Below are positions 8,253 to 59,140 of a DNA stretch of 64,000 nucleotides, piece after piece (position 1 is the stretch's first letter; each line of letters begins with the position of its first letter). The notes below the pieces were generated by a model, which saw only the letters and a list, made by a program, of their open reading frames with translations, was not told where the DNA came from and made no database searches. The position numbers were made by a program, and so were the translations under genes. This DNA is from Petropleomorpha daqingensis. GTDB taxonomy: Bacteria > Actinomycetota > Actinomycetes > Mycobacteriales > Geodermatophilaceae. The DNA is taken from the NCBI RefSeq assembly GCF_013408985.1, contig NZ_JACBZT010000001.1, positions 62,001 to 126,000 of the forward strand, written 5' to 3'.

Positions 8253-8270
8253 GGCGCTAGGTTAGTGATC

Positions 8271-8516: not shown

Positions 8517-8518
8517 GC

Positions 8519-8556: not shown

Positions 8557-8558
8557 AC

Positions 8559-12563: not shown

Positions 12564-12631
12564 GCGGGCACTCCCTCGGTCTCGGGTGGGTTGTGCACGA
12601 CCTACCCGACGCCCGCAGGTTCACGCCCCGG

Positions 12632-12940
12632 TCAGGCGAACAGATTCGCCCACGGCCGGACGCGCCACTCCTCCACCATCCCGGCGCGGACGAACGGGTC
12701 GCCCTCGGCGAACGCCCGCGCGTCCTCCTCGCTGCCCAGGATGCCCATCGTGCGCAGCGGCTCGTCGCCCAGGAAGGCGCCGGCCATGAGCAGGACGCCC
12801 TGCGCGTGCAGCTCCCGGGACCGCGCGACGTGCGCCGCGAGGTCCTGCGGCGCCGACGCCTGCACCTCGGCGAACGACCGGTACCGCGTCGTCATCGTCA
12901 GGACGTAGAACCTCGGCACACCCGTCAGCTCGATGCCCAT
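12632..12940 (-). CDS. YciI-family protein
   Basis: 102 residues forming a compact ferredoxin-like fold of the YciI/DGPF group. Recognisable are RSRELHAQGVLLMAGAF (about 41-57) and the late block EEDARAFAEGDPFVRAGMVEEWRVRPW, where the Asp-Pro-F context contains the conserved acidic residue. YciI domains are proposed small-molecule enzymes without an established reaction. It is one of two YciI-type genes here; the other, at 24458, sits beside a sigma factor. Confidence 0.85.
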   Translation of the reverse strand: MGIELTGVPRFYVLTMTTRYRSFAEVQASAPQDLAAHVARSRELHAQGVLLMAGAFLGDEPLRTMGILGSEEDARAFAEGDPFVRAGMVEEWRVRPWANLFA

Positions 12941-12968
12941 GGCGACAGGCTGGCAGCAGCCACCGGCA

Positions 12969-13358
12969 TCAGCCCAGCAGGTCCAGCAGCCAGCCCGGTC
13001 CCACGACGGGCACGCCGTCCGGGAGCCGCGCCCGCAGCCCGCGGTCGGCGGTGACCACCAGCAGGGCCTCCCCGCCGGCGGCGAGCTCCGCGGCTGTCGC
13101 GGCCAGGGCGTCGTCCCCGCTGCCGGGTGCGCGCACCACCCGCACGCCGTCGGGCGCCGCGGCGGCCCGCGCCTGCCCCTCGACGACGGCGACCACCTCG
13201 CGCACCGTCAGCTCCCCGCCGCCCGGCGCGGGCGCGGTGCGCCCGGGCAGGACGGCGAGGCGGGTCAGCAGGCGCTCGGTGGCACCGGCGCGGTCGCGCC
13301 ACCAGCCGTCCGGCCGCGCGCCGACGACGTTCGCGGCGTCCACCAGCAGCACGGTCAT
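12969..13358 (-). CDS. NYN/PIN-like nuclease-fold protein
   Basis: 129 residues. MTVLLVDAANVVGARPDGWWRDRAGA at the N-terminus is the NYN-domain signature, with Asp7 as the first metal-binding acid. The end of the fold shows SGDDALAATAA and LLVVTADRGLRARLPDG, the Asp residues expected in the active site. NYN proteins are predicted RNA nucleases. The ATG was chosen because it places the conserved beta strand at the N-terminus; the longer frame upstream has low-complexity sequence. Confidence 0.8.
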   Translation of the reverse strand: MTVLLVDAANVVGARPDGWWRDRAGATERLLTRLAVLPGRTAPAPGGGELTVREVVAVVEGQARAAAAPDGVRVVRAPGSGDDALAATAAELAAGGEALLVVTADRGLRARLPDGVPVVGPGWLLDLLG

Positions 13359-13464
13359 GGCGACGGCCCTACCCCGCATCCCCCGATCAGGCGACACGGA
13401 GGCCGTTTTCGCAGGTCGCGCACGGGGAACCCACGACCGACCCCCCGCGACCGAGGAGGCTCGC

Positions 13465-14097
13465 ATGGCAACGACGCAGGAACCCGCAGGCACGGACCCC
13501 ACGGCGTCCACCACGACGACCGAGGGAGCGCACGCCACCCGCGGTGCTGCCCGCGACGCGGTCGCCGCGCAACGCGCCCGCTTCGGCGGCATCAAGTGGG
13601 GAGCGGCGTTCTTCGGCTGGCTGTCGGCCAACGGCCTGGCCGTCGTGCTCATCGCGCTGCTGTCCGCGGCCGGTGTGGCGATCGGCCTGACCAACGGCGT
13701 CGACACCGCCGACGAGGCGGCCGCGCAGGCCGACACCCTCGGCATCGCCGGCGGGATCGCCGTCCTGGTCGTCCTGTTCCTGGCCTACCTGGCCGGCGGC
13801 TACGTGGCCGGGCGGATGGCCCGCTTCGACGGCGTCCGGCAGGGGCTGGCCGTCTGGGTGATCGGGCTGGTCGTCGTCCTGCTGCTGGCGCTGGCCGGCG
13901 CCGTCCTGGGCGCGCAGTACAACGTGCTCGAGCAGCTGAACCTGCCGCGCATCCCGGTCGACGAGGGTGCCGCGACCACCGCCGCGATCATCACGCTCGT
14001 GGCGATCCTCGTGGTCACGCTCGTGGGCGCGGTGCTCGGCGGCAAGCTCGGCGACCGCTACCACCGGCGGATCGACCGGGCCGGTTTCGTCGTCTGA
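13465..14097 (+). CDS. Multi-pass membrane protein of unknown function
   Basis: 210 residues. A hydrophilic Thr/Ala-rich N-terminus of about 40 residues is followed by four hydrophobic segments, and the C-terminus is basic (KLGDRYHRRIDRAGF). Glycine motifs GGYVAGRMAR and GAVLGGKLGDRYHRR recall the membrane-stress TIGR04086/YrzE-like arrangement, but I would not assign it. A GAGGAGG ribosome site lies 5 bases before the ATG. It may be co-transcribed with the next gene, 20 bases on. Confidence 0.75.
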   Translation: MATTQEPAGTDPTASTTTTEGAHATRGAARDAVAAQRARFGGIKWGAAFFGWLSANGLAVVLIALLSAAGVAIGLTNGVDTADEAAAQADTLGIAGGIAVLVVLFLAYLAGGYVAGRMARFDGVRQGLAVWVIGLVVVLLLALAGAVLGAQYNVLEQLNLPRIPVDEGAATTAAIITLVAILVVTLVGAVLGGKLGDRYHRRIDRAGFVV

Positions 14098-14116
14098 GGT
14101 CCGTAGGCTGCCGGCC

Positions 14117-14389
14117 ATGTGCCGGAACATCCGACCGCTGGCCAACTTCGAGCCGCCGGTGACGACCGACGAGATCCAGGCGGCCGCGTTGCAGTACGTC
14201 CGCAAGATCAGCGGGACGACGCGGCCGTCGCAGGTCAACACCGCCGCGTTCGAGCACGCCGTCGCCGAGGTCGCCGCTGCCTCGGCGCGGCTGCTCGACG
14301 CGCTGGTGACGACGGCGCCGCCCAAGGACCGCGAGGTCGAGGCGGCCAAGGCGCGGCAGCGGGCCGCCGTCCGCTACGGCACCGCTTAG
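14117..14389 (+). CDS. DUF2277 protein
   Basis: A 90-residue small protein. It begins MCRNIRPLANFEPP, the invariant opening of DUF2277 proteins with Cys2, and continues with EIQAAALQYVRKISGTTRPSQVN. The C-terminal LVTTAPPKDREVEAAKARQRAA is also family-typical. The function is unknown; the conserved Cys and basic residues suggest binding of a ligand or nucleic acid. It is followed after 6 bases by another gene. Confidence 0.88.
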   Translation: MCRNIRPLANFEPPVTTDEIQAAALQYVRKISGTTRPSQVNTAAFEHAVAEVAAASARLLDALVTTAPPKDREVEAAKARQRAAVRYGTA

Positions 14390-14395
14390 AACCGC

Positions 14396-14908
14396 ATGGC
14401 CGCCGGCACCGAGCACGAGGGACGGGAGCGCGAGACCCGCTCGCAGCGGATCAACCGCGAGCTGATCGAGCTGCTCAACGAGCTGCGGGTCGCGCTGCCG
14501 GGTGTCCAGTTCCTCTTCGCGTTCCTCCTCGTCGTCCCCTTCCAGCAGCGCGGCGGCCAGACCACCGACTTCCAGCGCGACGTCTACTTCGTGACCCTGG
14601 TGGCCGCGGCCGTGGCCACCGCGCTGCTCATCGCGCCGGCGGCGCAGCACCGCGTGCTGTTCCGCCAGCACGACAAGGAGCGGCTGCTCAGGCGCAGCAG
14701 CCTCATGGCCTACGCGGGGTTGCTCGTGCTCGCGGTCGCGATCGCGTCCGCGGTGCTGCTCGTCGTCGACGTCCTGTTCGGCCGGGCCCGCGCCTGGTGG
14801 ACCGCCGGCCTGATCGAGGTGCTGCTCGTCTACCTCTGGGTCGTCGTGCCGTTCGTACAGCGATCGCGGGGCGAGATCGAGTCGCTCGACGACAACCCCG
14901 ACGATTAG
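14396..14908 (+). CDS. DUF6328 membrane protein
   Basis: 170 residues with the DUF6328 layout. The charged N-terminus contains RINRELIELLNELRVALPGVQFLFAFLL, which runs into the first helix. A second helix follows, then APAAQHRVLFRQHDKERLLRRSSL, then two further helices and an acidic tail. Four transmembrane segments in total. Function unknown. It has no evident ribosome site of its own and probably relies on coupling to the preceding DUF2277 gene. Confidence 0.8.
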   Translation: MAAGTEHEGRERETRSQRINRELIELLNELRVALPGVQFLFAFLLVVPFQQRGGQTTDFQRDVYFVTLVAAAVATALLIAPAAQHRVLFRQHDKERLLRRSSLMAYAGLLVLAVAIASAVLLVVDVLFGRARAWWTAGLIEVLLVYLWVVVPFVQRSRGEIESLDDNPDD

Positions 14909-44619: not shown

Positions 44620-44664
44620 CCGTGGAGCTTGAGGCTCTGGGTATCGCATGCTATTGAGGGAGCG

Positions 44665-45951
44665 ATGAACTCCTCCAGCGACCGGGCCGGGGAGTTTTGG
44701 CTGGCCGGCAAACCTACTGACCGGCGCGCAGGCACTCTAACGCTAGAACCTGGCGAAGTAGGCAGACTCACAACCAAGGGCGCGCTAACTACAACAGCCG
44801 TGACGGATTCTCCGGGTGTCTACCACCTTGAGCCTGACACGCTCGCGAGGACTGTTCACGGCGTGCTCCACAATGGCACGCCCGTAACCTTGTTAGACTC
44901 ATTGAATACCGGATACATCGGCGGTTTGCTACCTAACGAGCAGGACGAACAGCGAATCTCTCTTCAGGTGATCCTAGGGGCTCATCTATCCGGTCGCGAC
45001 CATAGATTCACGAGGACACGTTTCTGCATTCAGGGGCTAAATGCTCCGACCATCATTCCCGACGAATCCGTCCCGGTTACAGGTGGCGGATCGATCAACA
45101 TCGAGCTGCGTGACTCCGCCACCTGGCTGACGATGGAGGATCTACCTGAGGCAAGCATCCGCGAACTCGACCGGCGGTATATGCGACCGCTTGCAAGTCT
45201 GGTCAGCCTCGCCTGTGGTCAGGACGCCGGCCTGCTCGGCGTCGAGGTGGCTTCAGGTAAGCAATGGCTGAAGGTCCACAGCCCCTCCCATCGAACCCAG
45301 AATATCCCCTGGCCGGCCCAGTCGCTACTCCATCCCGGCGATCTACACTTGCAGACTCTTGCCCATTGGCTAGACCGCGTCGAGCTTCTCGGGCCGCTTC
45401 CGCCGGTCGTTGTCAGGATGCTCGATGGCGACAACACACTCGAGGCGCAGGTGCTCGAGCTAGCGACCGTTGCGGAGGGATTGCATCGACGCCTACGGCC
45501 CGACACTTTGCGATTTCCAGTGGAGGTTGGCGCTGCCGTTCGGGCAGCAGCGGTCGACGCCGCTGCCTCAATCGAACCCGCTGCGAGAGATGCGGTCAAA
45601 GGGTTTCTGACTTTCGTGCACGAACCGGGCTACGCTCAAAGGCTGAAAGAACTTGCCGAGATGGCGGAGCTCGTCGCTCCCGGCATCACGGGTAAGACCT
45701 CCAAATGGAGGGTGCACGTATATGAGGCTCGAAACGACTTCGCCCATCGATCCCGTCAAGGCTGGCTCGACGAGGCGGAAATCGACAGATATCTCGCCGT
45801 CGCAGTTTCGCTTAGATGGCTCCTTCGAGCCGTCCTGCTCGACCAAGCCGGCTTGTCACACGAACACTTGAGGCAGCGCTTCAGGACCTACGGGCCATAT
45901 CAACTCTTCTTGAGCCAAGCGCGGGACTGGCTTCCTGACACTTACGGCTAA
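44665..45951 (+). CDS. apeA: ApeA-type HEPN anti-phage protein
   Basis: 428 residues. The N-terminal region (about 1-300, opening GEFWLAGKP...AGTLTLEPGEVGRL) matches the ApeA N-terminal domain by eye. The C-terminal helical domain is HEPN, with the RNase motif R356-N-D-F-A-H361 (Rx4H). ApeA proteins are predicted abortive-infection RNases triggered by phage. Base composition is unlike the neighbours: two lines inside the gene count 62% and 57% GC against 77% in the adjacent gene, and it uses a TTA codon at 44893 and many ATA, CTA and AGA codons. This signals recent transfer. A GAGGGAG site precedes the ATG. Confidence 0.8.
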   Translation: MNSSSDRAGEFWLAGKPTDRRAGTLTLEPGEVGRLTTKGALTTTAVTDSPGVYHLEPDTLARTVHGVLHNGTPVTLLDSLNTGYIGGLLPNEQDEQRISLQVILGAHLSGRDHRFTRTRFCIQGLNAPTIIPDESVPVTGGGSINIELRDSATWLTMEDLPEASIRELDRRYMRPLASLVSLACGQDAGLLGVEVASGKQWLKVHSPSHRTQNIPWPAQSLLHPGDLHLQTLAHWLDRVELLGPLPPVVVRMLDGDNTLEAQVLELATVAEGLHRRLRPDTLRFPVEVGAAVRAAAVDAAASIEPAARDAVKGFLTFVHEPGYAQRLKELAEMAELVAPGITGKTSKWRVHVYEARNDFAHRSRQGWLDEAEIDRYLAVAVSLRWLLRAVLLDQAGLSHEHLRQRFRTYGPYQLFLSQARDWLPDTYG

Positions 45952-47000: not shown

Positions 47001-48812
47001 TCAGTGGTACGGGTTGTCCGGCAGCGCCAGGGCCAGGTACTTCCCGTCGAGGCAGAGCACCAGGTCGCGCTCGACGAACCCGGCCAGCGCCCGGTCGAGC
47101 TCCTCGGGTGTGAAGCCCTCGACGGCGGCCAGCTCTTCGCGCGTGCGGGCATCGGCGCAGAACTCGTACAGCGCGGCGTCCCGCCCGTCGTAGCGGTACG
47201 CGCGACGGCTCTCCCCGCGCCCGTCGTGGATGCTCACCGACTGCCAGGTCTTCACGTACCGCAGGTACGGCCGTTGCTCCGCGTTCCACCGCGACTTCCA
47301 GTTCGCCACCAGCGACCGGCACTCCCGCGGCCCGTCGACCGGCAGGTCGACGTCGAAGCCGTGCTCGAAGAAGTACGCGATGCGGCGCAGGTCGTACTCG
47401 GGCGGGTAGATGTACCGGTAGCAGGCCGACGGCCGCAGGAACGAGATCGCGTGCTCGCCGGGCTCCTCGTGCATCGGCGAGCCGCGGTCCGGTCGGGCCT
47501 GCGCCATCGCGTACGGCGGCTGCAGGTGCGGGATCCGGCGCAGGACCTCCGCCTGCGCCCGGTAGTCGGCCTCGGTCTCGCCCGGGAAGCCGTAGAGGAT
47601 GTTGTAGGAGTTGTTGATCCCGTAGTACGTCGTCCACTTGAGCAGCTCGAGGTTGCCGATCCCGGTGACGTTCTTGCGCATGAGCTCGAGCACGTGGGTC
47701 GAGAAGCTCTCGATGCCCGGCTGCACCGACACCAGCCCGCCACGGCGCAGGTCGCGCAGCTGCGCGCGCGAGATCTTCGGCCGGATCTCGTAGTGCAGCC
47801 GCAGGTCGGTGTGCTCCTCGGCCAGCCGGCCGAACAGCCGCGCCGTGTAGGCCGGCGCCAGGATGTTGTCGATCGCGTTGAACCACCGCGTGCCGTACCG
47901 GCTGGACAGCTGCTGGAGCATGTCCAGCACCTGCTCGGGGCTCCTGCGCCGGAACTCCATGCCCGCCCGGTTGAGCCCGCAGAAGACGCAGTGGTGCTTC
48001 ATGCCGTACCAGCAGCCGCGGGCGGTCTCGATCGGCAGCATCACCTCGCGCCGGTCACCGGGTCCGCGGCTGGCGTAGTACTCGTCGAAGTCGGGGACCG
48101 GTGAGCTGTCGAGGTCGGCGAAGTTGGGTGCGCGGCCCTCGGAGCGGACGGCGCCGTCGTCGTCCCGCCACAGCACCCCGGCCAGGCCGGCGAGCGACTC
48201 GCCGGTCTGCAGCCGGCGGACCAGCTCGGGTGCGGTGACGTCGGCGTCGCCGCAGTGGACGACGTCGACCGCCGGGTTGCGGAGCATCACCTCCAGCGCG
48301 ATGTCGTCCTCGAACGTCGCGCCGCCCAGCACGACCGGCACCTCGGGGTGCCGTCGCTTCAGCGCCCGCGCGAACGCCAGCGAGGCGACCATCTGCTGGA
48401 AGGTGATGGACAGGCCGACGACGCCGAACTGCGACCAGTCGGTGCCCTCGACCACCTCGGCGAGCCACGCGGGGGCGACGACGTCGCGCACGTGCCGCAG
48501 GTCCTCGACCGTGCACCCGGCGCGGCCGCAGATCGCGGCGAGGTTGCTCTCGTAGTGCGCGAGGTACTCGTCGCCGTCGTTGCGCGGGCCGAACGCGGCG
48601 GTCGTCCAGATCCACTCGCCGACCATGCACGGGTAGACGTCGGCCAGCGCCTCGTTGAGCGCCGGCCCGAGCCGCTGCGCGAACCGCAGGAACAGCGACA
48701 TCGGCCGCACCTCGTACCCGGCCCGCTCCAGCACCGGCGTCAGCAGCGCCAGCTGGAAGGACGGGAAGCGGGTGCTCATCGTCGGCATGCTCACCAGCGC
48801 GACCGGCTTCAC
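47001..48812 (-). CDS. B12-binding radical SAM enzyme, RiPP-maturation type
   Basis: 603 residues. The N-terminal 200 residues form a cobalamin-binding-like Rossmann domain (VGLSITFQQMVASLAFARALKRRHPEVPVVLGGATFEDD). The radical SAM cluster motif is C267-W-Y-G-M-K-H-H-C275-V-F-C278-GLN, the CX7CX2C form seen in TIGR03975 RiPP maturation radical SAM proteins. It should make C-C or C-methyl bonds on a peptide. The C-terminal 110 residues look like a winged or peptide-recognition domain. The GTG start overlaps the stop of the AMMECR1-fusion gene, and the first gene of the operon encodes a repeat-rich candidate substrate. Confidence 0.85.
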   Translation of the reverse strand: MKPVALVSMPTMSTRFPSFQLALLTPVLERAGYEVRPMSLFLRFAQRLGPALNEALADVYPCMVGEWIWTTAAFGPRNDGDEYLAHYESNLAAICGRAGCTVEDLRHVRDVVAPAWLAEVVEGTDWSQFGVVGLSITFQQMVASLAFARALKRRHPEVPVVLGGATFEDDIALEVMLRNPAVDVVHCGDADVTAPELVRRLQTGESLAGLAGVLWRDDDGAVRSEGRAPNFADLDSSPVPDFDEYYASRGPGDRREVMLPIETARGCWYGMKHHCVFCGLNRAGMEFRRRSPEQVLDMLQQLSSRYGTRWFNAIDNILAPAYTARLFGRLAEEHTDLRLHYEIRPKISRAQLRDLRRGGLVSVQPGIESFSTHVLELMRKNVTGIGNLELLKWTTYYGINNSYNILYGFPGETEADYRAQAEVLRRIPHLQPPYAMAQARPDRGSPMHEEPGEHAISFLRPSACYRYIYPPEYDLRRIAYFFEHGFDVDLPVDGPRECRSLVANWKSRWNAEQRPYLRYVKTWQSVSIHDGRGESRRAYRYDGRDAALYEFCADARTREELAAVEGFTPEELDRALAGFVERDLVLCLDGKYLALALPDNPYH

Positions 48813-51526
48813 GGCAGCTCCCCCAGCGCGAGCACCGCCGACAGGGCGTGGTGCACGTAGTCGATCCGCACGTCGCTCCGGGTGGCCGTCGTCCGCACGC
48901 CGCCCAGCGCCCAGTCGGGGTCGGGCAGGACGGCGACGTCCCGCGGCTGGTAGACCAGCCGGTCGAGGAACGCCAGGCCGCGCGCGCAGGCGTCGCGGTA
49001 GCGCTCCACATCGCCCCCGGCGGCGAGGACCGCGGCGAGGCCCTCCAGGTAGAGGGCCGTGGTCGCGCCGGGCGCCTGCGGTGCGTGGTCGTTGAGGAAG
49101 CCGCCGGACTTCCGCGACTGGAACCGCAGGGCGACGTCGGCGACCTCGTGGGCGAACCGGGTGTGCTCGGCGCCGAGCAGGCCGCCCCACGCGGCGTACG
49201 CCTGGGCCAGCCAGGAGACCGCGCCCCAGGCGGTGTTCTGCCGGAACCGCCGCCGGTAGTGCGCGAGCGCCCGCTCGACCGGCCCGGTGGGGACGTCGAC
49301 ACCGGCGGCCGCAGCGCGAGCGAGGGCGAGCAGCGCCTGGCCGGGCGCGTAGTCCTGGTGCTCGGTGTCGAAGCGCCCGTGCCGGTCGATCGCGTCGACC
49401 AACCGGCCGACGTCCGGCGTGCGGCCCAGCGCCAGGTCGGCCAGCGCGACGAACGCCGGCTCGGCGATCGAGTCGGGCTCGCCCAGCCGGGCCAGGTCGG
49501 CGTGCGCCTCGGCGACCAGCCCGGCGCGGGCCTTGACCCAGGCGCCGTAGGCGATCCGCGCCGGGTGCGCGCCGGCGTGCAGCCGGTTGCCGAACACCTC
49601 GTACCGGACGAGGTAGGGCTCGTCGGCCGGGACGGAGTGCCGCAGTGTGTAGCGCCGCAGCAGCGGCTCCAGCCGGGCGCGCTGCTCGGCCGGCGTGGCC
49701 GCCGGGGCACCCTCGGGGAGGGCGCCGCGCAGCCGCCGGACACCGTCGCCGTCGGCGAGCCAGGTGGCGCAGTCGTAGCGCGTCCAGGAGTACGGCGGCC
49801 GGGTGATGCCGGCCTTGTCGATCACCTCGAGCACGTAGCCGCGCGGGGACAGGTCGTGGGTGACGGCGACGAACGGCAGCACGAACCCCGCGCGGTCGCC
49901 CTGGCGGACGGCGAGCGCCTGGTCGGCGAAGCGGGTCGGGCCCTCGACCCACTCCGGCGTGGCGGTGCCGATCTCGTGCCGGGCGAACAGCAGCGAGACG
50001 CTGACCGCGATCGGGTCGTCCGTCCCTGCGCCGCGGAACCGCCGGTCGGAGACGGCGGCCGCGGCGAACTCCCCCAGCCGGGTCGCGCAGTCGGCGGCGA
50101 ACGCCCCGGCGCAGCCGATCAGCCGGCCGCCGGCGTAGACGGTGACGAACAGCCCCTGGACGCCGTCCGCGACACCAGGCACGAACGGCTCCGGCCCCGG
50201 CCGGTCCAGGGCGCGGAGCACCGCCGCCCGGGCCGCCTCGGCCACCGGCCGGGCGAGCGCCGGGTCGTCGGACCAGACCGGGCCGGCCACCGGGACACCG
50301 GTGGGCTGCCAGGACTCCCCCGGCTCGACCAGCTTCTCGACCGTGTGCCGGTACACGACGTGCGGCTCGAGCGGCAGCAGCCCGGCGTTGCGCCGGGCGG
50401 CGTGCACGTACTGCTCCCACTCGGTCGCGATGCCGGGCATGCGGGGCAGGGCCCCGCCCATCCGCGAGTCCCGCTCCCGGCTGCGGACGACGATGCCGTA
50501 CCGGTCGTCGTCGAGGTCGGCGACGGTGCACTCCTCCAGGGCGCCGAAGAACGTGACCGCGACCGCGCACTGGTCGAGCACGGCGAGCGGGTCGTCGGCG
50601 CCGCGCAGCTGCTGCGCCGTCTGGACCGCGGCCCGGACGACGTCGGCCGCCACCGGGCCGGAGGGCTCGCCCGGGAAGTGCCAGAACCCGCTGCGCGCCG
50701 GCCGGTCGTGGATCCGGGAGCGCCGCCGAAGGCTCACCCAGCAGCCGCCGGCGCCGTCGTACGCGCGGTCGAGCCGGCGCGGTGCGCGCGGCACCTCGCC
50801 GGTGCGCAGGTGCTCGGCGATCACCTCGCGGGCGAGCGCAGCCGGGTGCAGGCCGTCCGCCAGCCACGCGCCGGTCGCCGCCGGCAGCGGCCGCTTCGTC
50901 GGGTTGGCCGGGTGGTCGGACTCGTCGTCCATGGCCCGCATGAAGTCGGCGTAGATGTCGAAGACGGTCGCCACCCGGAGTCCCGCCTCCACCAGCCGGG
51001 CAGGCCCGCGGTCGTAGCCGAACCCCACGAGCGCGACCGCGCCCTCCACCTCGAACCCGGCCTCGCGGAGCACCCGGGTGCAGGTGAGCATCGAGTGCCC
51101 GGAGCTGATCGAGTCATCGACCAGCACCACCGGTTCGCCCGGATCAAGCCGGCCCTCGATCAGCTTGAGCGAGCCGTGCGCCTTGCGCTCCTTGCGGACC
51201 AGCAGGCCCGAATACCTGCCGCCGCCCAGCAGCACGCAGCCCTGCACCAGCGGGACGCCGGTCAGGCCGAGGGTCGCGAGCTGCCGGCCCTCGAACCGCT
51301 CCAGCAGCCGCAGCAGCTCGCGCGCGGCCAGGGTGGCGCCCCGCGGGGTCAGCGTGACCGGCAGCGAGTCGAGCATCCACCGCGCCGAGGAGCCGTCCCG
51401 CGACAGCACGGGCTGCTCGTCGGAGCGGTGGAGGATGCCGTCGCGGCGCAGCAACGCGAGCAGCTCCGCGCGGTCGTCGTCCGGCGCGGGCTCCCGCACC
51501 GGGGTCGGGAACGGGAGGACAGCCAC
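48809..51526 (-). CDS. Phosphoribosyltransferase-AMMECR1-helical domain fusion
   Basis: 905 residues in three parts. Residues about 25-190 are an orotate-phosphoribosyltransferase-like fold with PRPP loop VVLVDDSISSGHS (133-145). About 420-590 is AMMECR1: LFVTVYAGGRLIGCAGAF (LRGC changed to LIGC), AAAAVSDRRFRG, IAVSVSLLFARHEI and VLPFVA...VLEVIDKAGI. About 640-905 is an alpha/alpha-toroid-like helical domain with PGQALLALARAA, TALYLEGLAAVL and IDYVHHALSAVLAL. Residues 190-420 are unassigned. I know no described protein with this combination. The GTG start follows the repeat-protein stop by one base. Confidence 0.8.
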   Translation of the reverse strand: MAVLPFPTPVREPAPDDDRAELLALLRRDGILHRSDEQPVLSRDGSSARWMLDSLPVTLTPRGATLAARELLRLLERFEGRQLATLGLTGVPLVQGCVLLGGGRYSGLLVRKERKAHGSLKLIEGRLDPGEPVVLVDDSISSGHSMLTCTRVLREAGFEVEGAVALVGFGYDRGPARLVEAGLRVATVFDIYADFMRAMDDESDHPANPTKRPLPAATGAWLADGLHPAALAREVIAEHLRTGEVPRAPRRLDRAYDGAGGCWVSLRRRSRIHDRPARSGFWHFPGEPSGPVAADVVRAAVQTAQQLRGADDPLAVLDQCAVAVTFFGALEECTVADLDDDRYGIVVRSRERDSRMGGALPRMPGIATEWEQYVHAARRNAGLLPLEPHVVYRHTVEKLVEPGESWQPTGVPVAGPVWSDDPALARPVAEAARAAVLRALDRPGPEPFVPGVADGVQGLFVTVYAGGRLIGCAGAFAADCATRLGEFAAAAVSDRRFRGAGTDDPIAVSVSLLFARHEIGTATPEWVEGPTRFADQALAVRQGDRAGFVLPFVAVTHDLSPRGYVLEVIDKAGITRPPYSWTRYDCATWLADGDGVRRLRGALPEGAPAATPAEQRARLEPLLRRYTLRHSVPADEPYLVRYEVFGNRLHAGAHPARIAYGAWVKARAGLVAEAHADLARLGEPDSIAEPAFVALADLALGRTPDVGRLVDAIDRHGRFDTEHQDYAPGQALLALARAAAAGVDVPTGPVERALAHYRRRFRQNTAWGAVSWLAQAYAAWGGLLGAEHTRFAHEVADVALRFQSRKSGGFLNDHAPQAPGATTALYLEGLAAVLAAGGDVERYRDACARGLAFLDRLVYQPRDVAVLPDPDWALGGVRTTATRSDVRIDYVHHALSAVLALGELP

Positions 51527-51527
51527 C

Positions 51528-52079
51528 TCAGCGCTCCGGGGCCACCTCGGGGGCGACCTCGGGGATCACCTCGGAGGGGTCCGTCGGCCGCGAGGGCTCG
51601 GTCTCCGACGGCTGCACCTCGGGCGCGACCTCCGGCTGGACCTCGGGCGCCACCTCTTCGATCGGGCCGGGGCCGGGCTCGTACGGCGACGGCCGCCCGG
51701 GCGCGACCTCGACGATCCGCTCCGGTGCGACCTCGGTGACCACCTCGGAGGGTTCCGCCGGCCGCGGGGGCTCGGTCTCCGACGGCTGCACCTCCGGCGC
51801 GACCCCCTCGATCGGGCCGGGCTCGTACGGCGACGGGCCGGGACGCCGCTCGGCCGGGCCGTCCGGGGCGACCTCGACGATCTGCTCGGTGCGCGGCTCC
51901 TGCTCCCCGAACAGCGGGCTGGTCGGCGCGACCTCCACGATGATCTCGGAGACGGGGACGAACCCCTCCTCGGGCCGGTCGCCGGACGGCCGCTGGCGGG
52001 CACCGCCCGGCACGACGCCCGGGGGCTCCTCGCGGTCGGGCTCGTCGGACAGGGGCGGACGGTGGGGGTCTTCGGCCAT
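51528..52079 (-). CDS. Repeat-rich acidic protein, candidate modified-peptide substrate
   Basis: 183 residues with no Cys, Trp or long hydrophobic run. The first 44 residues form a leader-like part (MAEDPHRPPLSDEP...GFVPVSE). After it come IIVEVAP, QIVEVAP and RIVEVAP (ends at 52, 72, 127), and two long units PSPYEPGP(GP)IE(G/E)VAPEVQP...SETEP..RP..PSEV..EVAPER (about 82-120 and 130-183). The second unit contains an extra EVAPEVQP. It is first in the operon, one base before the fusion gene, with a GGAGG ribosome site. Val and Pro are the residues methylated by B12 radical SAM enzymes of bottromycin. A disordered scaffold protein is the alternative. Confidence 0.65.
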   Translation of the reverse strand: MAEDPHRPPLSDEPDREEPPGVVPGGARQRPSGDRPEEGFVPVSEIIVEVAPTSPLFGEQEPRTEQIVEVAPDGPAERRPGPSPYEPGPIEGVAPEVQPSETEPPRPAEPSEVVTEVAPERIVEVAPGRPSPYEPGPGPIEEVAPEVQPEVAPEVQPSETEPSRPTDPSEVIPEVAPEVAPER

Positions 52080-52197: not shown

Positions 52198-53025
52198 TCA
52201 GGCGCGGCGGCGGTCCTGCTCGTCGGCGCCGTGCCGGGCGACCAGCCCGCGCAGCCGGTGCAGCGCGGTGCGGGCCGCGTTCTCGTGCTCGCCCTGGTCC
52301 TCGTGCTCCTCGCCCGGCGGGCTCGGGGGCGCGTCGGCGTCGCTCCACATCCCCGGCAGCGGGATCTCCAGCCCGGCACCCCGGCGGGCCAGGGGGGTGC
52401 GCAGCGGCTGGGCGAAGTCGACCCCGCCGTGCACCTCGACGGTGGTACCGGTCAGCCGCACCCGGTCGGCCAGCTGGGCGACCACCCACTCACCCCACGC
52501 CGTCCGGTAGCCCAGCGACTGGTCGCCGAAGAGCACGTCGAACGGCCCGACGACGTCGTCGGGGTCGAGCAGGCCGTGCTTGGCCGACAGCACGAACCAC
52601 GGGTGCCCCGAGGACTGCGCGTGCTCCCGGGCGCGGGCGAACCCGCTGCTGCGGAACAGCCGGGACGCCGGCTGCACCCCGTCGGCGACCGCCCCGGAGG
52701 ACCCGACGAGGACGACGCGGCCGCCGGATCCGCCGTCGGGCAGCTCGGCCGGCTCCCACCGCTGCGGCAGCGGCGACTGGTAGCGGCGGTACCTGCCGCG
52801 GTCGACCCGGTGCAGCAGCGGCGTGCGCCCGGCGAACGGCGCGCCGTCGGGGTGGCTGGCGTTGTCGGTGGCGAACTGGATGTGGGCGGCGATCGAGGAG
52901 ACCCCGACGTCGGGACGGCGCGCGCTCACCCAGTTGATCAGGGCCGCGCGGCTGAACGGCTCGGGCAGCGTCTCGGCCGCCTCCGCCAGCAGCTCCCAGA
53001 TCGTGGGCAGACCCCCGGTGCTCAT
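52198..53025 (-). CDS. DUF6884 protein with N-terminal winged-helix-like domain
   Basis: 275 residues. The N-terminal 75 residues (TIWELLAEAAETLPEPFSRAALINWVSARRPDVGVSSIAAHIQFATDN) look like a winged helix of the DUF7669 kind. About 95-215 is a DUF6884-like domain: VVLVGSSGAVADGVQPASRLFRSSGFARAREHAQSSGHPWFVLSAKHGLLDPDDVVGPFD, with the conserved SAKHGLLDP block. The family is proposed to act on nucleic acid or nucleotides. It is divergent from the Hhe-like helicase gene, with 214 bases between, which suggests a role in the same defence locus. Confidence 0.72.
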   Translation of the reverse strand: MSTGGLPTIWELLAEAAETLPEPFSRAALINWVSARRPDVGVSSIAAHIQFATDNASHPDGAPFAGRTPLLHRVDRGRYRRYQSPLPQRWEPAELPDGGSGGRVVLVGSSGAVADGVQPASRLFRSSGFARAREHAQSSGHPWFVLSAKHGLLDPDDVVGPFDVLFGDQSLGYRTAWGEWVVAQLADRVRLTGTTVEVHGGVDFAQPLRTPLARRGAGLEIPLPGMWSDADAPPSPPGEEHEDQGEHENAARTALHRLRGLVARHGADEQDRRRA

Positions 53026-53239
53026 CCGGCGCACGCTAACCCGGGGGACACTGGGTACGACCGGTCCGAGACCCGAAAGAACCCCATCGGCGTACACATC
53101 GCCGGTCGCGACCCTCCGGAAGGTGGTACCCGCGTACTTCCCGGGTGTGATCCGCGGAAGATCGCCGCAGCAGTCACACAGGCAACAGACACCCGACCCC
53201 TGGGCGGACTGGTCCGTCCTGACCCGGTAGACAGATCGC

Positions 53240-56200
53240 ATGGACACCGCTGACCTCCGGACGGGCGACGTGGTCGCCCCGGTGGCGGCGGTCTCGATCG
53301 ACCTCACCACCACCCCGGTGCTCAGCTACGCGCTGGCGCACAACCGGATCCCGGTGGTCAACCGGCTCGCGCTCACCTCGACCGCCACGGTCGGCGGCGC
53401 GACGGTGCGGCTGTCGGTCCGCGACCCGGAAGGCCCGATCGGCAGCGCCGTCGAGCTCACCGCGGACCTCGACGAGGGCCGGACGACGGTCCTCCAGGAC
53501 GTCGCGCTCACCCTCGACCCCGCGGCGATGCTGCAGGTCGACAGCCAGCGCCCGGGCGTGATCGACGTCGAGGTGGTCGACGGCGAGCGGGTGATCGGCC
53601 ACGCGAGCACGCCGGTGCGGGTGCTCGCCGCCCACCAGTGGCTGGCCACTCCCCTGCCGCTGGCGCTGGAGATGCTCGCCGCCCACGTGCAGCCCAACCA
53701 CCCGGCGGTGTCCGGGCTGATCGAGGAAGCCGCGGCGATCCTCGACCGGGACACCGGCAGCGACCTGGTCGACGGCTACGACGGCGGCCCCGAGCGCGTC
53801 GACGCGATCGTCGCCGCCCTCGCCGAGGCGATCCGCAACCACGGCATCCGGCACAGCGAGCCGCCGGCCAGCTGGGTGGAGATCGGCCAGCAGGTGCGCA
53901 CGCCCGGCGACGTCCTCACCTGGCAGGTCGGCACGCCCCTGGACGTCGTCGTCCTCATGGCCGCCGCGCTGGAGCAGGCCGGCATCCGGCCGCTGCTGTG
54001 GCTCGCGGAAGGCCACGCGTTCCTCGGTTACTGGAAGGAAGAACGCAGCGCCGAGAGCGCCGCCACCACCGACGTCGCCCCGCTGGTCAACCTGGTCGAC
54101 CTCGGGCTGATCGGGCTGGTCGAGCCGAAGCTGCTCACCAGCCTCGGTGAGCCCGGCGCCGACCTGCACCGCCCCGCCTACACCGGCTGGCTGACCGGCG
54201 ACCTCGACCGGGTCCTCGGCGTCACCGACGTCGACCGCGCGCGCCGCGACGGGATCCTGCCGCTGCCCGCCCGCGCCCGCGACGCCGACGGCGTCCTGCA
54301 GATCGTCGAGTACCGGCCGGCCGAGCACCGGCACGCCGCCCCGCACGCCGAGCCGCACCCGGGCAGCGCGCGCCCCGACGCCCCGCCGCGGGTGCTGCAG
54401 TGGAAGAACGCGCTGCTGGACCTGTCGCTGCGCAACCGGCTGATCAACTACACGCCGCGCTCCGGGCTGCCGCTGGTCGTGCCGGCGGAGTCGCTGGGCA
54501 TCCTCGAGAACTTCGTCCACGACGGGACGCCGATCACCCTGCTGCCGTCCGACCAGCTCGCCGCGGTCGCGAAGGAGCGCGGGGCGGCCACCGCCCGCGA
54601 CCTGCCCGGAGAGCAGCTCGCCGAGACGCTGGTCGAGCGGCGGTCGGTGCACGCCGACGTCCCTGACGCCGGCTACCTCAACCGGCTGCGCAACCTCGCC
54701 TACAAGGCGAAGACGGTGGTCGAGGAGACCGGGGCGAACAACCTCTACCTGGCGCTGGGCAGCCTGGTCTGGGAGCTCGACGGCCGCCCGCTGCGCTCGC
54801 CGCTGGTGCTGGTGCCCGTCGTCCTCACCCCCACCTCGCGCACCGGCGCCTACCGGATCACGCTCGACGAGGCGGGCTCGAGCACCCCGAACTACTGCCT
54901 GCTGGAGAAGCTGCGCCAGCTGCACGGGGTGTCGGTCCCGCAGCTCGCCGAGCCGGCCACCGATGCCTCGGGCATCGACCTGGACGCGGCGCTGGAGGCG
55001 ATGCGTTCGGCGCTGGTCGGCTACCGGCTGCCCTACCGCGTGGAGCCGACCGCCGACCTCGCGATCCTGCAGTTCGCGAAGTACCGGCTGTGGAAGGATC
55101 TCGACGAGCACTGGTCGGACTTCGCCGGCAACGCGCTCGTCCAGCACCTGGTCTACGAGCCGAACGAGCCGTTCCAGGACCCGATCTACGACACCGCCGA
55201 GCACACCGACCTCGACGAGCTGGCCGCGGCGCTGCCCGCGCCGGCCGACGCCAGCCAGCTGCGCGCCATCGCCGAGGCGACCGCCGGGCGCACCTTCGTC
55301 CTGGAGGGCCCGCCCGGCACCGGCAAGTCGCAGACGATCACCAACCTGCTCACCCGCGCGGTCGCCGACGGCAAGCGGGTGCTGTTCGTCGCCGAGAAGC
55401 GCGCGGCCCTCGACGTCGTCGCCCGCCGGCTGGACTCGGTCGGCATGGGCCCGTTCGCGCTCGATCTGCACGACAAGGGCAGCCGCGCCTCGGTGGTGCG
55501 CGCGCAGATCCGCGAGGCGATCGAGCACGCGGTCGCCGTCGACGCCCAGGGCCTGGCCGCCGACGGCGAGGACCTGCGCAGCGCCCGCCGGCTGCTGGCC
55601 CGCTACGCCGACCGGCTGCACGCGCCCAACGCCGCGGGCCTGTCGCTCTACACCGCCCGGACGGCGGAGCTGTCGGCCGCGGGCGAGCTCGCGCCGCTGC
55701 CGGTGCCGCTGCCGTTCGTGGCCGGGGCGTCGGAGGAGACGTTCACCGCCGTCCGCCGGGCGCTGGTGCTGCTGCCCGACATCGCCGACCTGACCCGCCC
55801 CTCGACCCGGCACCCGTGGGCGTTCGTCGACTCCCCGGCGATCGAGCTGCCGGCGGCGCAGGCCGCTGCGGTCGAGGTCGACCAGGCGGTGCGCGACCTT
55901 CCGGTCGGGTCAGGGCTGGCCAACGTGCTGCGGCACGCCCGCACCCCGGAGGACCTCGATTCGGTCGCCGCCCTGCTCACCGGCCCGCCGGTCGGCCTCG
56001 ACGTCCTGGACGAGACCTTCACCGAGTACTGGACGGCGGCGACCTCGGCGATCCAGGGCGAGGTCGCGGCGTATCTCGCGTTCCGCCACCCCGGCATGGA
56101 CGTCGCGACGCCGGCTGCCCTCGACCTGCCGCTGGCCGAGATCTACGTGGCCGCGCAGACCGCCGCGGCGGCCGGCTTCTTCAGCCGCCGGCGCAAGCTG

Positions 56201-59140
56201 ATCGCCGTCCGCGACCGCTTGGCGCCGTACCTCAAGCCCGGTGCGCAGGTGAAGCCGAAAGACGTGCCCACCCTGGTCGAGGGCCTGTGGCGGGTGCAGA
56301 ACGGCGTGCACGCGATCGCCCAGCGGGCCGCGTCCATCCCCGGCATCACCGTGCCGGAGGGCTGGAACCCGTTCGCCGACCCGGGCCTGGTCGAGCGGCA
56401 GGTCGCCTGGCTGCGGCGGGCCGCGGTCGCGGTCGACGGCTCGGCGCCGTTCCACGTCGCGCTGCGCAAGCTGATCGTCGCCGGCGAGACGGCCGACCCG
56501 GTCGGCACCGCGAAGGTGACCCGGCTGCGCGATGCCCTGCTGCGGCTGCTCGAGGTGTGCCGCAGCACCTCCCCCGCGCTCGCGCAGTGGGCCGGCGACG
56601 ACGGGTTCGTGCTGCGCTGGACGATGACCCGCCCCGAGCGGGGCGTCGAGCACCCCGGTCTGATGTCGCTGCGCCGCTGGGTGTCCTTCCTCGACACGCT
56701 CGAGCCGCTGCGCACGGCCGGCCTGATCGAGGCCCGGCACCTGCTGGTCACCGGCGCGGTGCTCGCCGACGACGCCGTCCGGGCCTTCGACCGCGGAGTG
56801 GCCACCGCCTCGGTCGAGGAGCGCCGCGACGCCACCGGCCTGGACACCTTCGACCCCGAGTTCCACGAGAAGGCGATCCGCCGGTTCACGGTCGCCTCGC
56901 AGGCGGTCCGCAGGCACCTGACCTCGGCGCTGCCCGCCGCGGTGATCGACGCGCGGCCCTTCGACGCGGCGCTGGGCGCCGGGCAGGTCGGCGCGCTGCA
57001 GCGGGAGCTCGCCCGGCAGCGGCGAGGCCTGGGCGTGCGGCAGCTGCTGGCCCAGTACGGCGAGCTGATCACCACGGTCATGCCGATCGTGCTGGTCAGC
57101 CCCGACTCGGTGGCGCGGTTCTTCCCGGCGCAGGCGCGGCTGTTCGACCTCGTCGTCTTCGACGAGGCCTCGCAGATCCGGGTCGCCGACGCCATCGGCG
57201 CGCTCGGGCGGGCACGGACGGCGGTCGTGGTCGGCGACTCCAAGCAGATGCCGCCGACGTCCTTCGCCGAGCCGACCCCCGGCGCCGAGGACGAGACCTC
57301 CGACTTCGGCGCCGCCGCCGTCGAGGACGAGGAGTCGATCCTCTCCGAGTGCGTGCAGGCGCGCGTGCCGCGGCAGTGGCTGTCGTGGCACTACCGCAGC
57401 CAGGACGAGTCGCTGATCGCGTTCTCCAACGCGCAGTACTACGAGAACCGGCTGGCCTCCTTCCCCGCCCCGACGCACGGCCGGCCCTCCGCCGACCCCG
57501 ACGGCCGCGGGGTCTCGCTGGTCCGGGTCGGCGGCACCTTCCACCGCTCGGGCGGCGGGCGGCTGCTGCGCACCAACCCGGTCGAGGCGGAGGCGATCGT
57601 CGCCGAGATCCGCCGCCGGTTCGCGCTCTCGCGCGATGTGGCGCCGTCCATCGGCGTGGTCACGTTCAACGCCCAGCAGCGGGCGCTCATCGAGACGCTG
57701 CTGCGCGATGGCAACAACACTGCCGACGACGACCGGCTCACCGAGGCGCTGGACCGCGCCGACGGCGAGGGCCTGTTCGTGAAGAACCTGGAGAACGTGC
57801 AGGGCGACGAGCGCGACGTCGTCTTCTTCTCCACCGCGTTCTCGGTGAACGAGAAGGGCCAGCTGCCGCTGAACTTCGGCCCGCTGAACCGGGTCGGCGG
57901 CGAGCGCCGGCTCAACGTGGCGGTCACCCGCGCCCGGCGGCAGGTCGTGGTGTTCTCCTCCTTCGAGCCCGGGCAGCTGCGGGCCGAGGAGACCTCGTCG
58001 GTCGGCATCAAGCACCTGCGCGCCTACCTCGACCTCGCCGCGATGGGCACCGACGTGCTGCCCCGCAGTGCTGGTCTCGGAGCCCGGTCGACCTCGGTGG
58101 TCGACCGGCACCGCGAGCAGATCGCCGCGGCGCTGCGCTCGCGCGGGCTCGTGGTGCGCACCGACGTCGGCCTGTCGGAGTTCCGGATCGACCTGTCGGT
58201 GGCGCGCGCGTCGGACCCCGACACCCCGGTGATGGCGGTGCTGCTCGACGGCCCCGCGTGGGCGCGGCGGCGGACCGTCGGCGACCGGGACGGGCTGCCG
58301 GTCGAGGTGCTCGCCGGGATGCAGCGCTGGCCGGCGGTCGAGCGGGTCTGGCTGCCGGCGTGGCTGGCCGACCCGTCGTCCGTGGTCGAGAAGCTGGTCG
58401 AGGCGGTCGACGCGGCCCGGCTGGAGCCGGCGCCGGTCGTCCCGCTCCAGCTGCCGACCGCGGCGATCGAGTCGTTCAAGGGCGTCGCGGCGCTGCGCGC
58501 GTCGGTCACCGCGTCGCTGCCGGTGCCGCCCCCGGCTGCGGTCGCACCCAAGCCGGCGCCGGCTGCGAAGCCCGCCGGCCCCGCGGTCCTGGACGGCGAG
58601 ACGACCTTCTCCGCGTGGACGCCGAGGACCGCCGGCGAGAAGACGGTGCTCGACGAGCTGCCGGCCGCGAAGTCGGCGCGGGTGGTGCGGCGGGTGCTGA
58701 CCAGCGGCATCAAGGCCGAGGGCCCGATCCACGTCGACCGGCTGGTGCGGCTGACCGCGGCGGCGTTCGGGCTGACCCGGGTCACCGAGGCCCGCAAGAC
58801 CGCGATCCTCTCGGTGCTGCCGCCGTCGGTCCTGACCGACGAGTGGCTGTGGCCCGAGGGCGGCGACCGCGCCGCCTACGACGTCTTCCGCCGGCAGGCC
58901 GCGAGCACCGAGCGGCCGCTGGAGCACGTGCCGCCGGAGGAGATCGGCAACGCGATGACCGCGCTGTGCCGCGCGGCCGCCGGCATGGAGCGCGAGGAGC
59001 TGCTCACCCAGGTGGCGGCGGTGTTCGGCTACAAGCGGCGGACGCCGACCGTGACCCCGGTGCTCGAGGCCGCGGTCGACGCCGCGCTGGCCGCAGGCAA
59101 GCTCACGACGTCCGAGTCGGGCCTGCTCGTCGCCGTCTGA
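53240..59140 (+). CDS. DUF4011-helicase-Vsr-DUF3320 protein (Hhe architecture)
   Basis: 1966 residues. In order: an N-terminal beta region; a transglutaminase-like domain (about 150-270) in which GTCLD is changed to GTPLD at 231-235 while GHAF with His259 remains, so protease activity is doubtful; DUF4011 starting WKNALLDLSLRNRLINY (388); SF1 helicase with Walker A GPPGTGKS (690-697), DEAS (1308-1311) and VVVGDSKQMPPTS; a Vsr-like nuclease domain (about 1618-1720, FRIDLSVA and AVLLDGPAWARRRTVGDRDGLP); and DUF3320 near AEGPIHVDRLVR (about 1827). This is the layout of the Hhe anti-phage system. The preceding 214 bases hold no other gene. Confidence 0.88.
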   Translation: MDTADLRTGDVVAPVAAVSIDLTTTPVLSYALAHNRIPVVNRLALTSTATVGGATVRLSVRDPEGPIGSAVELTADLDEGRTTVLQDVALTLDPAAMLQVDSQRPGVIDVEVVDGERVIGHASTPVRVLAAHQWLATPLPLALEMLAAHVQPNHPAVSGLIEEAAAILDRDTGSDLVDGYDGGPERVDAIVAALAEAIRNHGIRHSEPPASWVEIGQQVRTPGDVLTWQVGTPLDVVVLMAAALEQAGIRPLLWLAEGHAFLGYWKEERSAESAATTDVAPLVNLVDLGLIGLVEPKLLTSLGEPGADLHRPAYTGWLTGDLDRVLGVTDVDRARRDGILPLPARARDADGVLQIVEYRPAEHRHAAPHAEPHPGSARPDAPPRVLQWKNALLDLSLRNRLINYTPRSGLPLVVPAESLGILENFVHDGTPITLLPSDQLAAVAKERGAATARDLPGEQLAETLVERRSVHADVPDAGYLNRLRNLAYKAKTVVEETGANNLYLALGSLVWELDGRPLRSPLVLVPVVLTPTSRTGAYRITLDEAGSSTPNYCLLEKLRQLHGVSVPQLAEPATDASGIDLDAALEAMRSALVGYRLPYRVEPTADLAILQFAKYRLWKDLDEHWSDFAGNALVQHLVYEPNEPFQDPIYDTAEHTDLDELAAALPAPADASQLRAIAEATAGRTFVLEGPPGTGKSQTITNLLTRAVADGKRVLFVAEKRAALDVVARRLDSVGMGPFALDLHDKGSRASVVRAQIREAIEHAVAVDAQGLAADGEDLRSARRLLARYADRLHAPNAAGLSLYTARTAELSAAGELAPLPVPLPFVAGASEETFTAVRRALVLLPDIADLTRPSTRHPWAFVDSPAIELPAAQAAAVEVDQAVRDLPVGSGLANVLRHARTPEDLDSVAALLTGPPVGLDVLDETFTEYWTAATSAIQGEVAAYLAFRHPGMDVATPAALDLPLAEIYVAAQTAAAAGFFSRRRKLIAVRDRLAPYLKPGAQVKPKDVPTLVEGLWRVQNGVHAIAQRAASIPGITVPEGWNPFADPGLVERQVAWLRRAAVAVDGSAPFHVALRKLIVAGETADPVGTAKVTRLRDALLRLLEVCRSTSPALAQWAGDDGFVLRWTMTRPERGVEHPGLMSLRRWVSFLDTLEPLRTAGLIEARHLLVTGAVLADDAVRAFDRGVATASVEERRDATGLDTFDPEFHEKAIRRFTVASQAVRRHLTSALPAAVIDARPFDAALGAGQVGALQRELARQRRGLGVRQLLAQYGELITTVMPIVLVSPDSVARFFPAQARLFDLVVFDEASQIRVADAIGALGRARTAVVVGDSKQMPPTSFAEPTPGAEDETSDFGAAAVEDEESILSECVQARVPRQWLSWHYRSQDESLIAFSNAQYYENRLASFPAPTHGRPSADPDGRGVSLVRVGGTFHRSGGGRLLRTNPVEAEAIVAEIRRRFALSRDVAPSIGVVTFNAQQRALIETLLRDGNNTADDDRLTEALDRADGEGLFVKNLENVQGDERDVVFFSTAFSVNEKGQLPLNFGPLNRVGGERRLNVAVTRARRQVVVFSSFEPGQLRAEETSSVGIKHLRAYLDLAAMGTDVLPRSAGLGARSTSVVDRHREQIAAALRSRGLVVRTDVGLSEFRIDLSVARASDPDTPVMAVLLDGPAWARRRTVGDRDGLPVEVLAGMQRWPAVERVWLPAWLADPSSVVEKLVEAVDAARLEPAPVVPLQLPTAAIESFKGVAALRASVTASLPVPPPAAVAPKPAPAAKPAGPAVLDGETTFSAWTPRTAGEKTVLDELPAAKSARVVRRVLTSGIKAEGPIHVDRLVRLTAAAFGLTRVTEARKTAILSVLPPSVLTDEWLWPEGGDRAAYDVFRRQAASTERPLEHVPPEEIGNAMTALCRAAAGMEREELLTQVAAVFGYKRRTPTVTPVLEAAVDAALAAGKLTTSESGLLVAV

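Follow-up and report, generated by a model that had tools for sequence, protein, structure and literature searches.

A conserved three-gene cassette with a B12-domain radical SAM gene as a candidate system for multi-site modification of a repeat protein

The closest described relatives of the system reported here are pathways for ribosomally synthesized and post-translationally modified peptides (RiPPs) that use B12-dependent radical S-adenosylmethionine (SAM) enzymes. Precursors of the proteusins, to which polytheonamide belongs, have a nitrile-hydratase-like leader. To our knowledge, the bottromycin pathway employs peptide-cyclising enzymes and no AMMECR1 or orotate phosphoribosyltransferase (OPRTase) partner, and the biochemical function of AMMECR1 is unassigned, although the family includes a human disease gene. 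PoyC has been described as a B12 radical SAM enzyme with a CX7CX2C motif and with the C-beta positions of Val and Ile as its methylation targets (PMC11285071, PMC5682303), and the bottromycin radical SAM enzymes as C-methylating Val, Pro and Phe in a pathway with a precursor of the core-follower type (PMC11285071); in one of these two papers the bottromycin enzymes are said to have the same CX7CX2C motif. Here, we describe three minus-strand genes at 47001-52079 of a 64,000-nucleotide stretch of the Petropleomorpha daqingensis genome (positions 62,001 to 126,000 of contig NZ_JACBZT010000001.1; hereafter the window), which encode a repeat protein (P0001), a four-domain protein (P0002) and a radical SAM enzyme (P0003). 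On balance, we consider it probable that this operon belongs to a three-gene system, widely but thinly distributed, by which the repeat protein is modified at many sites. A literature search that covered few subscription papers and no preprints found no description of this gene set, and no four-domain protein of the P0002 type was found in the papers searched.

The genes run in the order repeat gene, P0002 gene and radical SAM gene. GGAGG precedes the ATG start of the repeat gene (51528..52079, minus strand), whose product of 183 residues is free of Cys, consists of 23% Pro and 19% Glu, contains eight E[VI]AP motifs and is the proposed multi-site substrate. Its TGA is separated by a single base from the GTG start of the P0002 gene (48809..51526, minus strand; 905 residues), and the stop of the P0002 gene overlaps the GTG start of the P0003 gene (47001..48812, minus strand; 603 residues) as GTGA. 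An earlier note, made from the sequence alone, had claimed these coordinates, the 1-base gap and the overlap, and all proved to be as stated when the sequence was re-read. Compared by published description, PoyC and PoyB of the polytheonamide pathway resemble P0003 as B12-dependent radical SAM enzymes with CX7CX2C. The present system differs from a proteusin pathway in that no leader was found, in its candidate multi-repeat substrate and in its four-domain partner. The likeness of the bottromycin enzymes BotRMT1-3 to P0003 is confined to the class level, namely to C-methylation of Val, Pro and Phe. The bottromycin analogy drawn in the earlier note holds as such a class resemblance, but PoyC is the closer parallel in view of the CX7CX2C motif and the preference for Val and Ile.

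The three genes are conserved together as a cassette. A scan of genome contigs with an alignment of seven family proteins gave at least 593 radical SAM stretches, of which 568 were confirmed, and the best 80 yielded 79 loci. Eleven of these loci (L100-L108, L110 and L111) are 52-65% identical to P0003; the remaining 68 are at most 41% identical and all match TIGR03975 at E <= 1e-80, so that they serve as a fair control from the same family. When the 79 loci were searched with P0002 by tblastn, an adjacent homologue was found in 10 of the 11 close loci and in none of the 68 distant ones. A full-length P0002 adjoins the radical SAM gene in nine close loci, and the copy in L102 is interrupted and cut by the contig end: it lies in two frames at 11948-14499, leaves residues about 119-177 unmatched and runs off the contig, reflecting either an assembly error or a real loss. 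L103, whose contig begins 62 bases before the radical SAM gene, was left out of the counts; P0002 was not found elsewhere in its genome (G817). Open reading frames (ORFs) of at least 40 codons with E[VIL]AP or PE[VILM] repeats are present in nine of the 10 cassette loci and in none of the 68 distant loci, five of which are shorter than 8 kb. In the tenth, L104, P0002 is immediately followed by a repeat ORF that is cut by the contig end and carries a variant motif, a recurring RPIVEVVA[DG]IP.

The cassette was also reached from P0002. A search of 146 Myxococcota genomes with the C-terminal toroid of P0002 alone gave seven at E <= 1e-10, five of them strong (L249-L253) and two weaker (G1217 and G1251). 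An E[VI][AG]P repeat ORF adjoins in all five strong loci, and a radical SAM gene (53-58% identity) is adjacent in four. G1217 matches by the toroid part only; in its two loci (L254 and L255, 19 kb each), P0003 found no counterpart and a regular expression picked up no repeat ORF. E[VIL][AG]P occurs 3-23 times per ORF in 14 of the 15 cassettes outside the window (17 times in L252 and not at all in L104), as against a best count of two among the 68 distant loci; a stricter six-residue pattern occurs at least three times in 13 of 15, with a best count of one among the 68. The variant motifs of L104 and L252 were missed by the first patterns and were first judged by eye from the ORFs, and the strict pattern also misses L108 (HPEVAP). 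With the window included, a repeat ORF is present in 16 of 16 cassettes with flanking sequence, as a truncated variant in L104, and a radical SAM gene is adjacent in 15 of 16 and lies in the same genome in the last. As in a RiPP pathway, the candidate precursor gene adjoins the radical SAM or P0002 gene in all 16. Because 10 loci were picked by their radical SAM gene and five by P0002, neither of these two counts is unbiased; the repeat ORF was never used for picking. The division between close and distant loci, together with the repeat ORFs of the five toroid-found cassettes, bears out the earlier view of the three genes as a unit. Close radical SAM homologues without the partners had been named in the earlier note as evidence that would speak against it; as far as the contigs extend, none were found, since both partners accompany 10 of the 11 and the contig of the remaining one breaks off.

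The system is rare and patchy, and spans Actinomycetota, Acidobacteriota and Myxococcota. The ten cassette loci found by the radical SAM scan belong to Mycobacterium sp. OAS707, which has two cassettes with different repeat proteins, to one Acidimicrobiaceae metagenome-assembled genome (MAG) and to seven Acidobacteriota MAGs, and L103 belongs to a Myxococcaceae MAG; most of the named relatives are metagenome assemblies. Full P0002 occurs in three of 257 sampled genomes of Acidobacteriota (the phylum of G821), all already among the cassettes, and two more carry a variant P0002 that lacks the second AMMECR1 domain. It occurs in 1 of 118 genomes of the genus of G814, 1 of 148 of the class of G815 and 1 of 112 of the window's family, and residues 231-905 of P0002 occur in 1 of 396 genomes of the window's phylum and 1 of 397 of its order. 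No second full-length P0002 was found in the family, phylum and order samples, where the other matches are PyrE-like frames or pieces. P0002 used as a close-relative query gave no match in genome contigs, probably because exact peptides are not shared; it was the radical SAM alignment that found the relatives. Across 10 loci, the pairwise identities of P0002 rise and fall with those of P0003 (correlation r = 0.95).

Five arrangements of the cassette were found in total. The order repeat-P0002-radical SAM is shared by the window, L100, L101, L106, L108, L110, L249, L250 and L252, the order repeat-radical SAM-P0002 by L102 and L107, and the order radical SAM-P0002-repeat by L104, L105 and L111; the radical SAM gene is divergent in L253 and remote in L251. 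An all-against-all comparison of ORFs covered 12 loci, the window and the 11 close loci, several of them shortened because their contigs end; apart from the three cassette genes, it showed no gene common to three or more loci. Four pairs of loci have a common gene (L102-L107, L105-L111, L100-L111 and L103-L108), and the last two pairs share one weakly similar gene each, with 32% and 29% identity.

P0001 contains eight E[VIL]AP motifs, whereas 2000 residue shuffles gave 0.11 on average and never more than two. The eight copies are spelled with seven distinct 12-mers, indicating that the repetition is at the peptide and not the DNA level. P0001 has no match in Pfam or NCBIfam up to E = 1; this covers the nitrile-hydratase-like proteusin leader, for which NCBIfam presumably includes a model. 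Three further repeat proteins have no Pfam match up to 0.1. E[VI]AP occurs in 3-23 copies per protein in the ten members counted, whereas E[VI]GP or EVVA..P prevail in some others. Among the Myxococcota, the repeats read E[IV]AP in L249, VI[RM]E[IV]GP in L250 and L251, VVMEVGP in L252 and VIEIAP in L253. The earlier note had spoken of a VEVAP repeat protein; a Cys-free repeat protein is indeed present, but what is conserved among the repeat proteins is E[VI][AG]P and not VEVAP.

Motif statistics were taken from 10 repeat proteins, those of the window and of nine loci, L104 apart, with stop-to-stop frames used for the nine. They contain 93 E[VIL]AP motifs, whose second position is Val in 77, Ile in 15 and Leu in one. 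Glu follows the motif Pro in 61 of the 93; Ile or Val predominates at position -2, and Val, Pro or Thr at position -1. The motif is retained across the repeat proteins, whereas spacer length, sequence and charge vary freely: net charge ranges from -46 (L106) to +33 (L111) for the stop-to-stop frames. A single Cys is present across all 10 proteins when inferred starts are used, in L110. The repeat proteins of L105 and L111 are identical at 27 of 32 motif positions and 68 of 104 positions elsewhere, and their codon differences are synonymous in 10 of 15 cases within motifs as against 32 of 68 outside; although the numbers are small, this pattern fits constraint at the protein level. For the repeat proteins of relatives, inferred starts were used, of which the L100 start is ambiguous; with L100 excluded, the first motif lies 11-46 residues after the inferred start in eight cassettes. 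In the repeat protein of L253 (6243-7322), VIEIAP repeats are confined to the C-terminal part, and the long N-terminal region without a Pfam match is perhaps a leader-like domain.

By its B12 domain and its CX7CX2C motif, P0003 groups with enzymes known to methylate sp3 carbons in peptides, and it is a candidate B12-dependent (class B) radical SAM C-methyltransferase. It matches TIGR03975 (rSAM_ocin_1) with 531 bits against a cut-off of 281.85 and the B12-binding domain PF02310 with 38.5 bits against 32.1, and its radical SAM domain is also above cut-off. The CX7CX2C motif corresponds to C267-C275-C278 and is invariant in 12 subfamily rows and seven family rows. All 12 subfamily radical SAM proteins match TIGR03975 at E <= 1e-20 and both PF02310 and PF04055 at E <= 1. 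The motif, PF02310 and TIGR03975 are all found in the last gene, which had earlier been called a B12-domain radical SAM gene of the RiPP-maturation type. In a quick tree of 88 rows, the 12 proteins form one clade with an SH-aLRT value of 90, which is under the 95 mark. P0003 has no match among Protein Data Bank (PDB) sequences up to 0.01. The region 9117-14391 of L093 contains another related radical SAM gene, 38% identical to P0003, next to a gene that weakly matches NTP-transferases and a protein with a cyclophilin domain.

The partner protein P0002 had been described as an unusual fusion of a phosphoribosyltransferase and AMMECR1. This fusion is real, but the description is incomplete, because P0002 also has a second AMMECR1 domain and a C-terminal toroid. 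The OPRTase-like domain (residues about 15-200; 50927..51484, minus strand) contains RKxxKxHG at 111-118 and a phosphoribosyl pyrophosphate (PRPP) loop, VDDSISSG, at 136-143, which together we take to be the OPRTase catalytic signature. Sequence searches of NCBIfam and the PDB group residues about 17-190 with OPRTases. This domain scores under cut-off against both TIGR00336 (53.1 bits, cut-off 106.8, NCBIfam) and PF00156 (18.2 bits, cut-off 26.3). The best chain in a PDB sequence search is 5hkf_A, in the OPRTase region, with E 2.9e-13, and the model of P0002 superposes on the Mtb OPRTase 5hki_B with a TMt of 0.82. R111, E113, K115, H117, G118, D138, S139, S142 and G143 are invariant in 10 homologues. 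The model and these residues assign the domain to the type I phosphoribosyltransferase fold with a near-complete signature. PyrE has the same fold and most of the same catalytic signature, yet P0002 stays below the PyrE-type TIGR00336 cut-off, and the host has a separate PyrE-like frame (G000:C1:1386403-1386918).

The tandem AMMECR1 domains (residues about 230-420 and 450-600; 49742..50845, minus strand) match PF01871 with 29.8 and 43.8 bits against a cut-off of 25 when the two pieces are scanned separately, and AMMECR1 is matched in all 10 P0002 homologues. BLAST of the two copies against each other gave nothing convincing among the matches listed, and the count of two domains is based on each passing the Pfam cut-off. 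The AlphaFold2 model of P0002 has a predicted template-modelling score (pTM) of 0.75 and a mean predicted local distance difference test value (pLDDT) of 81.5, and its best matches in the PDB are the AMMECR1-type structures 1zq7 and 1vaj. AMMECR1 stands alongside a radical SAM enzyme in AmmeMemoRadiSam as well as here, but the radical SAM family differs and AMMECR1 is fused in P0002; P0002 scores 56.1 bits against TIGR04335, under the cut-off of 99, and no gene common to three or more cassette loci could be MEMO.

The C-terminal (alpha/alpha)6 toroid (residues about 610-905; 48812..49741, minus strand) resembles sugar 2-epimerases, GH76 and class II terpene cyclases. A separate model of the C-terminal 310 residues reaches a pTM of 0.90, and the best match is cellobiose 2-epimerase 9l8i_A (Z 23.4, root-mean-square deviation 3.0, 281 aligned residues), with squalene-hopene cyclase, GH76 and other families tied within Z 1. 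Such a modelled fold likeness by itself does not establish function. A mutually related set of hypothetical proteins (L096 1462-3261 and the plasmid proteins of Thioclava, NZ_CP053563.1 6123-7634, and Rhizobium, NZ_CP050304.1 216577-217866) is represented by the L096 protein, which looks like an AMMECR1-like part joined to a toroid, aligns with the P0002 toroid by its C-terminal part and has a hydrophobic N-terminus and no Pfam match; an L037 protein is likewise related to the P0002 C-terminus. Two Acidobacteriota loci, L234 (1605-9812) and L235 (350-8112), encode an OPRTase-AMMECR1-toroid protein with one AMMECR1 domain. Also encoded there are a Cys-rich protein, another protein in which GDLQIKHKLQLGDE-type repeats were recognised by eye, and a B12-type radical SAM enzyme that is distantly related (about 30% identical to P0003). 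They may represent a sister system with another repeat motif.

In the mechanism that we favour, the repeat protein would be a substrate with many sites; that it is the substrate had been proposed earlier and is its most likely role. P0003 would C-methylate an unactivated carbon, probably in the Val or Ile of the motif and most likely at C-beta, as PoyC does; this residue is the candidate site because every motif counted has Val, Ile or, once, Leu there and because of the PoyC precedent. P0002 would bind the motif, add a second group to the same substrate, or both. Such a role on the same substrate is favoured here on the basis of fold and residues; the added group would possibly be PRPP-derived, in the simplest case phosphoribosyl from PRPP, and the sugar-epimerase-like toroid could hold or reshape the phosphoribosyl unit. 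The end product may be the whole modified repeat protein and not a peptide cut from it; that no exporter or protease gene is common to three or more loci weakly suggests that the modified protein is used whole. A fuller version, in which the product is a leaderless repeat polymer with every E[VI][AG]P C-methylated and bearing a PRPP-derived group from P0002, with AMMECR1 as the peptide-binding or catalytic part, appears doubtful in this complete form. If it were true, the combination of C-methyl and PRPP-derived modification would constitute a new class of post-translational polymer and the first biochemical role for AMMECR1. The cassette adds to the B12-radical SAM systems one with a likely multi-repeat substrate without a common leader and a constant four-domain partner, places AMMECR1 in a specific gene setting that includes a candidate substrate, and leads to the testable prediction that mass shifts occur at one particular tetrapeptide.

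A reading that overlaps with this mechanism makes P0002 the main modifier: its OPRTase domain would move phosphoribose to the motif or to a group made by radical chemistry, the toroid would remodel the sugar, and the radical SAM enzyme would prepare the site. The OPRTase fold with its near-complete signature agrees with it, as does the toroid, which in the models is nearest in fold to sugar epimerases and GH76. In L251 (G1323), P0002 stays beside the repeat gene even though the radical SAM gene is found about 21 kb further along that contig, with no repeat ORF beside it in the region read. However, K112 of the OPRTase signature is replaced by Gly in L105 and by Ser in L111 among the 10 rows, so that OPRTase catalysis is not certain, and we know of no OPRTase that acts on a protein. 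We regard P0002 as the main modifier as possible but lean against it.

The main rival to multi-site modification of the repeat protein is a docking scaffold. E[VI][AG]P would then be a docking motif that aligns many copies of P0002, of the radical SAM enzyme or of both to act on another substrate, and the repeat protein would remain unmodified. Several observations weigh against the favoured mechanism. A fixed motif with spacers free in length and charge is compatible with a scaffold as well. No leader shared by the N-termini of all repeat proteins is apparent by eye, and no transporter or protease gene is common to three or more of the 12 loci, unlike typical RiPP clusters; both facts agree with a scaffold. 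Pfam gave no PqqD or RiPP recognition element match in the 12 radical SAM proteins, only weak helix-turn-helix matches, each in one member. To these are added the remote radical SAM gene of L251 and the loss of K112 described above. The L234/L235 variant, which lacks E[VI]AP repeats, indicates that P0002-type proteins are not tied to this motif. According to a sponge survey, antiSMASH cluster calls based on TIGR03975 were dropped there as likely false positives (PMC9426513). Membership of TIGR03975 alone therefore does not make a RiPP cluster, and the argument here rests on the conserved partner and the repeat. On the other side, the radical SAM family takes its name from the maturation of ribosomal peptides, and enzymes with a B12 domain and CX7CX2C act on such peptides (PMC5682303). 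In addition, an invariant branched residue followed by Ala or Gly and Pro resembles a substrate site, and no other gene common to three or more loci supplies an alternative substrate. We judge the scaffold unlikely.

A service role for B12, with P0002 loading the cobalamin into the radical SAM enzyme, remodelling it or protecting it, is much less probable still. Some phosphoribosyltransferases act on cobamide lower ligands, and transcobalamin-type carriers share the toroid fold, with transcobalamin entries among the Foldseek matches of the toroid (8ixu, E 7.2e-3). However, sugar epimerases, GH76 and terpene cyclases fit the toroid better, and this role would leave unexplained both the repeat protein and the lack of P0002 in 68 other TIGR03975 loci. 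Least probable of all is an anti-phage defence module, suggested by ApeA-type HEPN and ProA helicase genes in the same stretch, and it was set aside: ProA, ApeA and DUF6884 neighbours are present, but they are not common to other cassettes, and P0001-P0003 have no PADLOC match up to E = 0.01. These neighbours are a DUF6884 and DUF7669 protein at 52198-53313 (minus strand), about 120 bases upstream of the cassette, which is a weak PADLOC candidate (PDC-M57A); a DUF4011 helicase of 1966 residues at 53240-59140 (plus strand), which matches the anti-phage protein ProA (NCBIfam NF058533) with 1678 bits against a cut-off of 1500; and a protein with ApeA N-terminal and HEPN-ApeA domains at 44629-45951 (plus strand), likely of the abortive-infection type.

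A pheganomycin-like cluster of Streptomyces globosus (L062) offers a described setting for a more distant TIGR03975 enzyme, 36% identical to P0003. That cluster encodes a precursor of the pheganomycin type, a ligase related to PGM1 and dpgABC, and the 25.8 kb read contain no P0002 match and at most one E[VIL][AG]P per ORF.

Individual flanking genes of the cassettes were annotated in part. In two Acidobacteriota, the repeat gene is immediately preceded by a gene for a 2-oxoglutarate-Fe(II) oxygenase (L102 8494-9102 and L107 8819-9388; PF13640, 48.6 and 58.7 bits, cut-off 27); this oxygenase is plausible as a further modifier and could hydroxylate the Pro-rich repeats. Directly downstream of the L110 cassette, at 11853-13694, is a second radical SAM gene of the P0003 kind, 35% identical to P0003. 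Upstream of the cassettes of L111 (6704-8870) and L105 (about 7169-9437) are genes for a SPASM radical SAM enzyme and a 77-residue DUF1843 protein, assigned by scanning in L111 and by matching ORFs in L105, which are perhaps a separate peptide-modification pair and are among several genes that these two related loci have in common.

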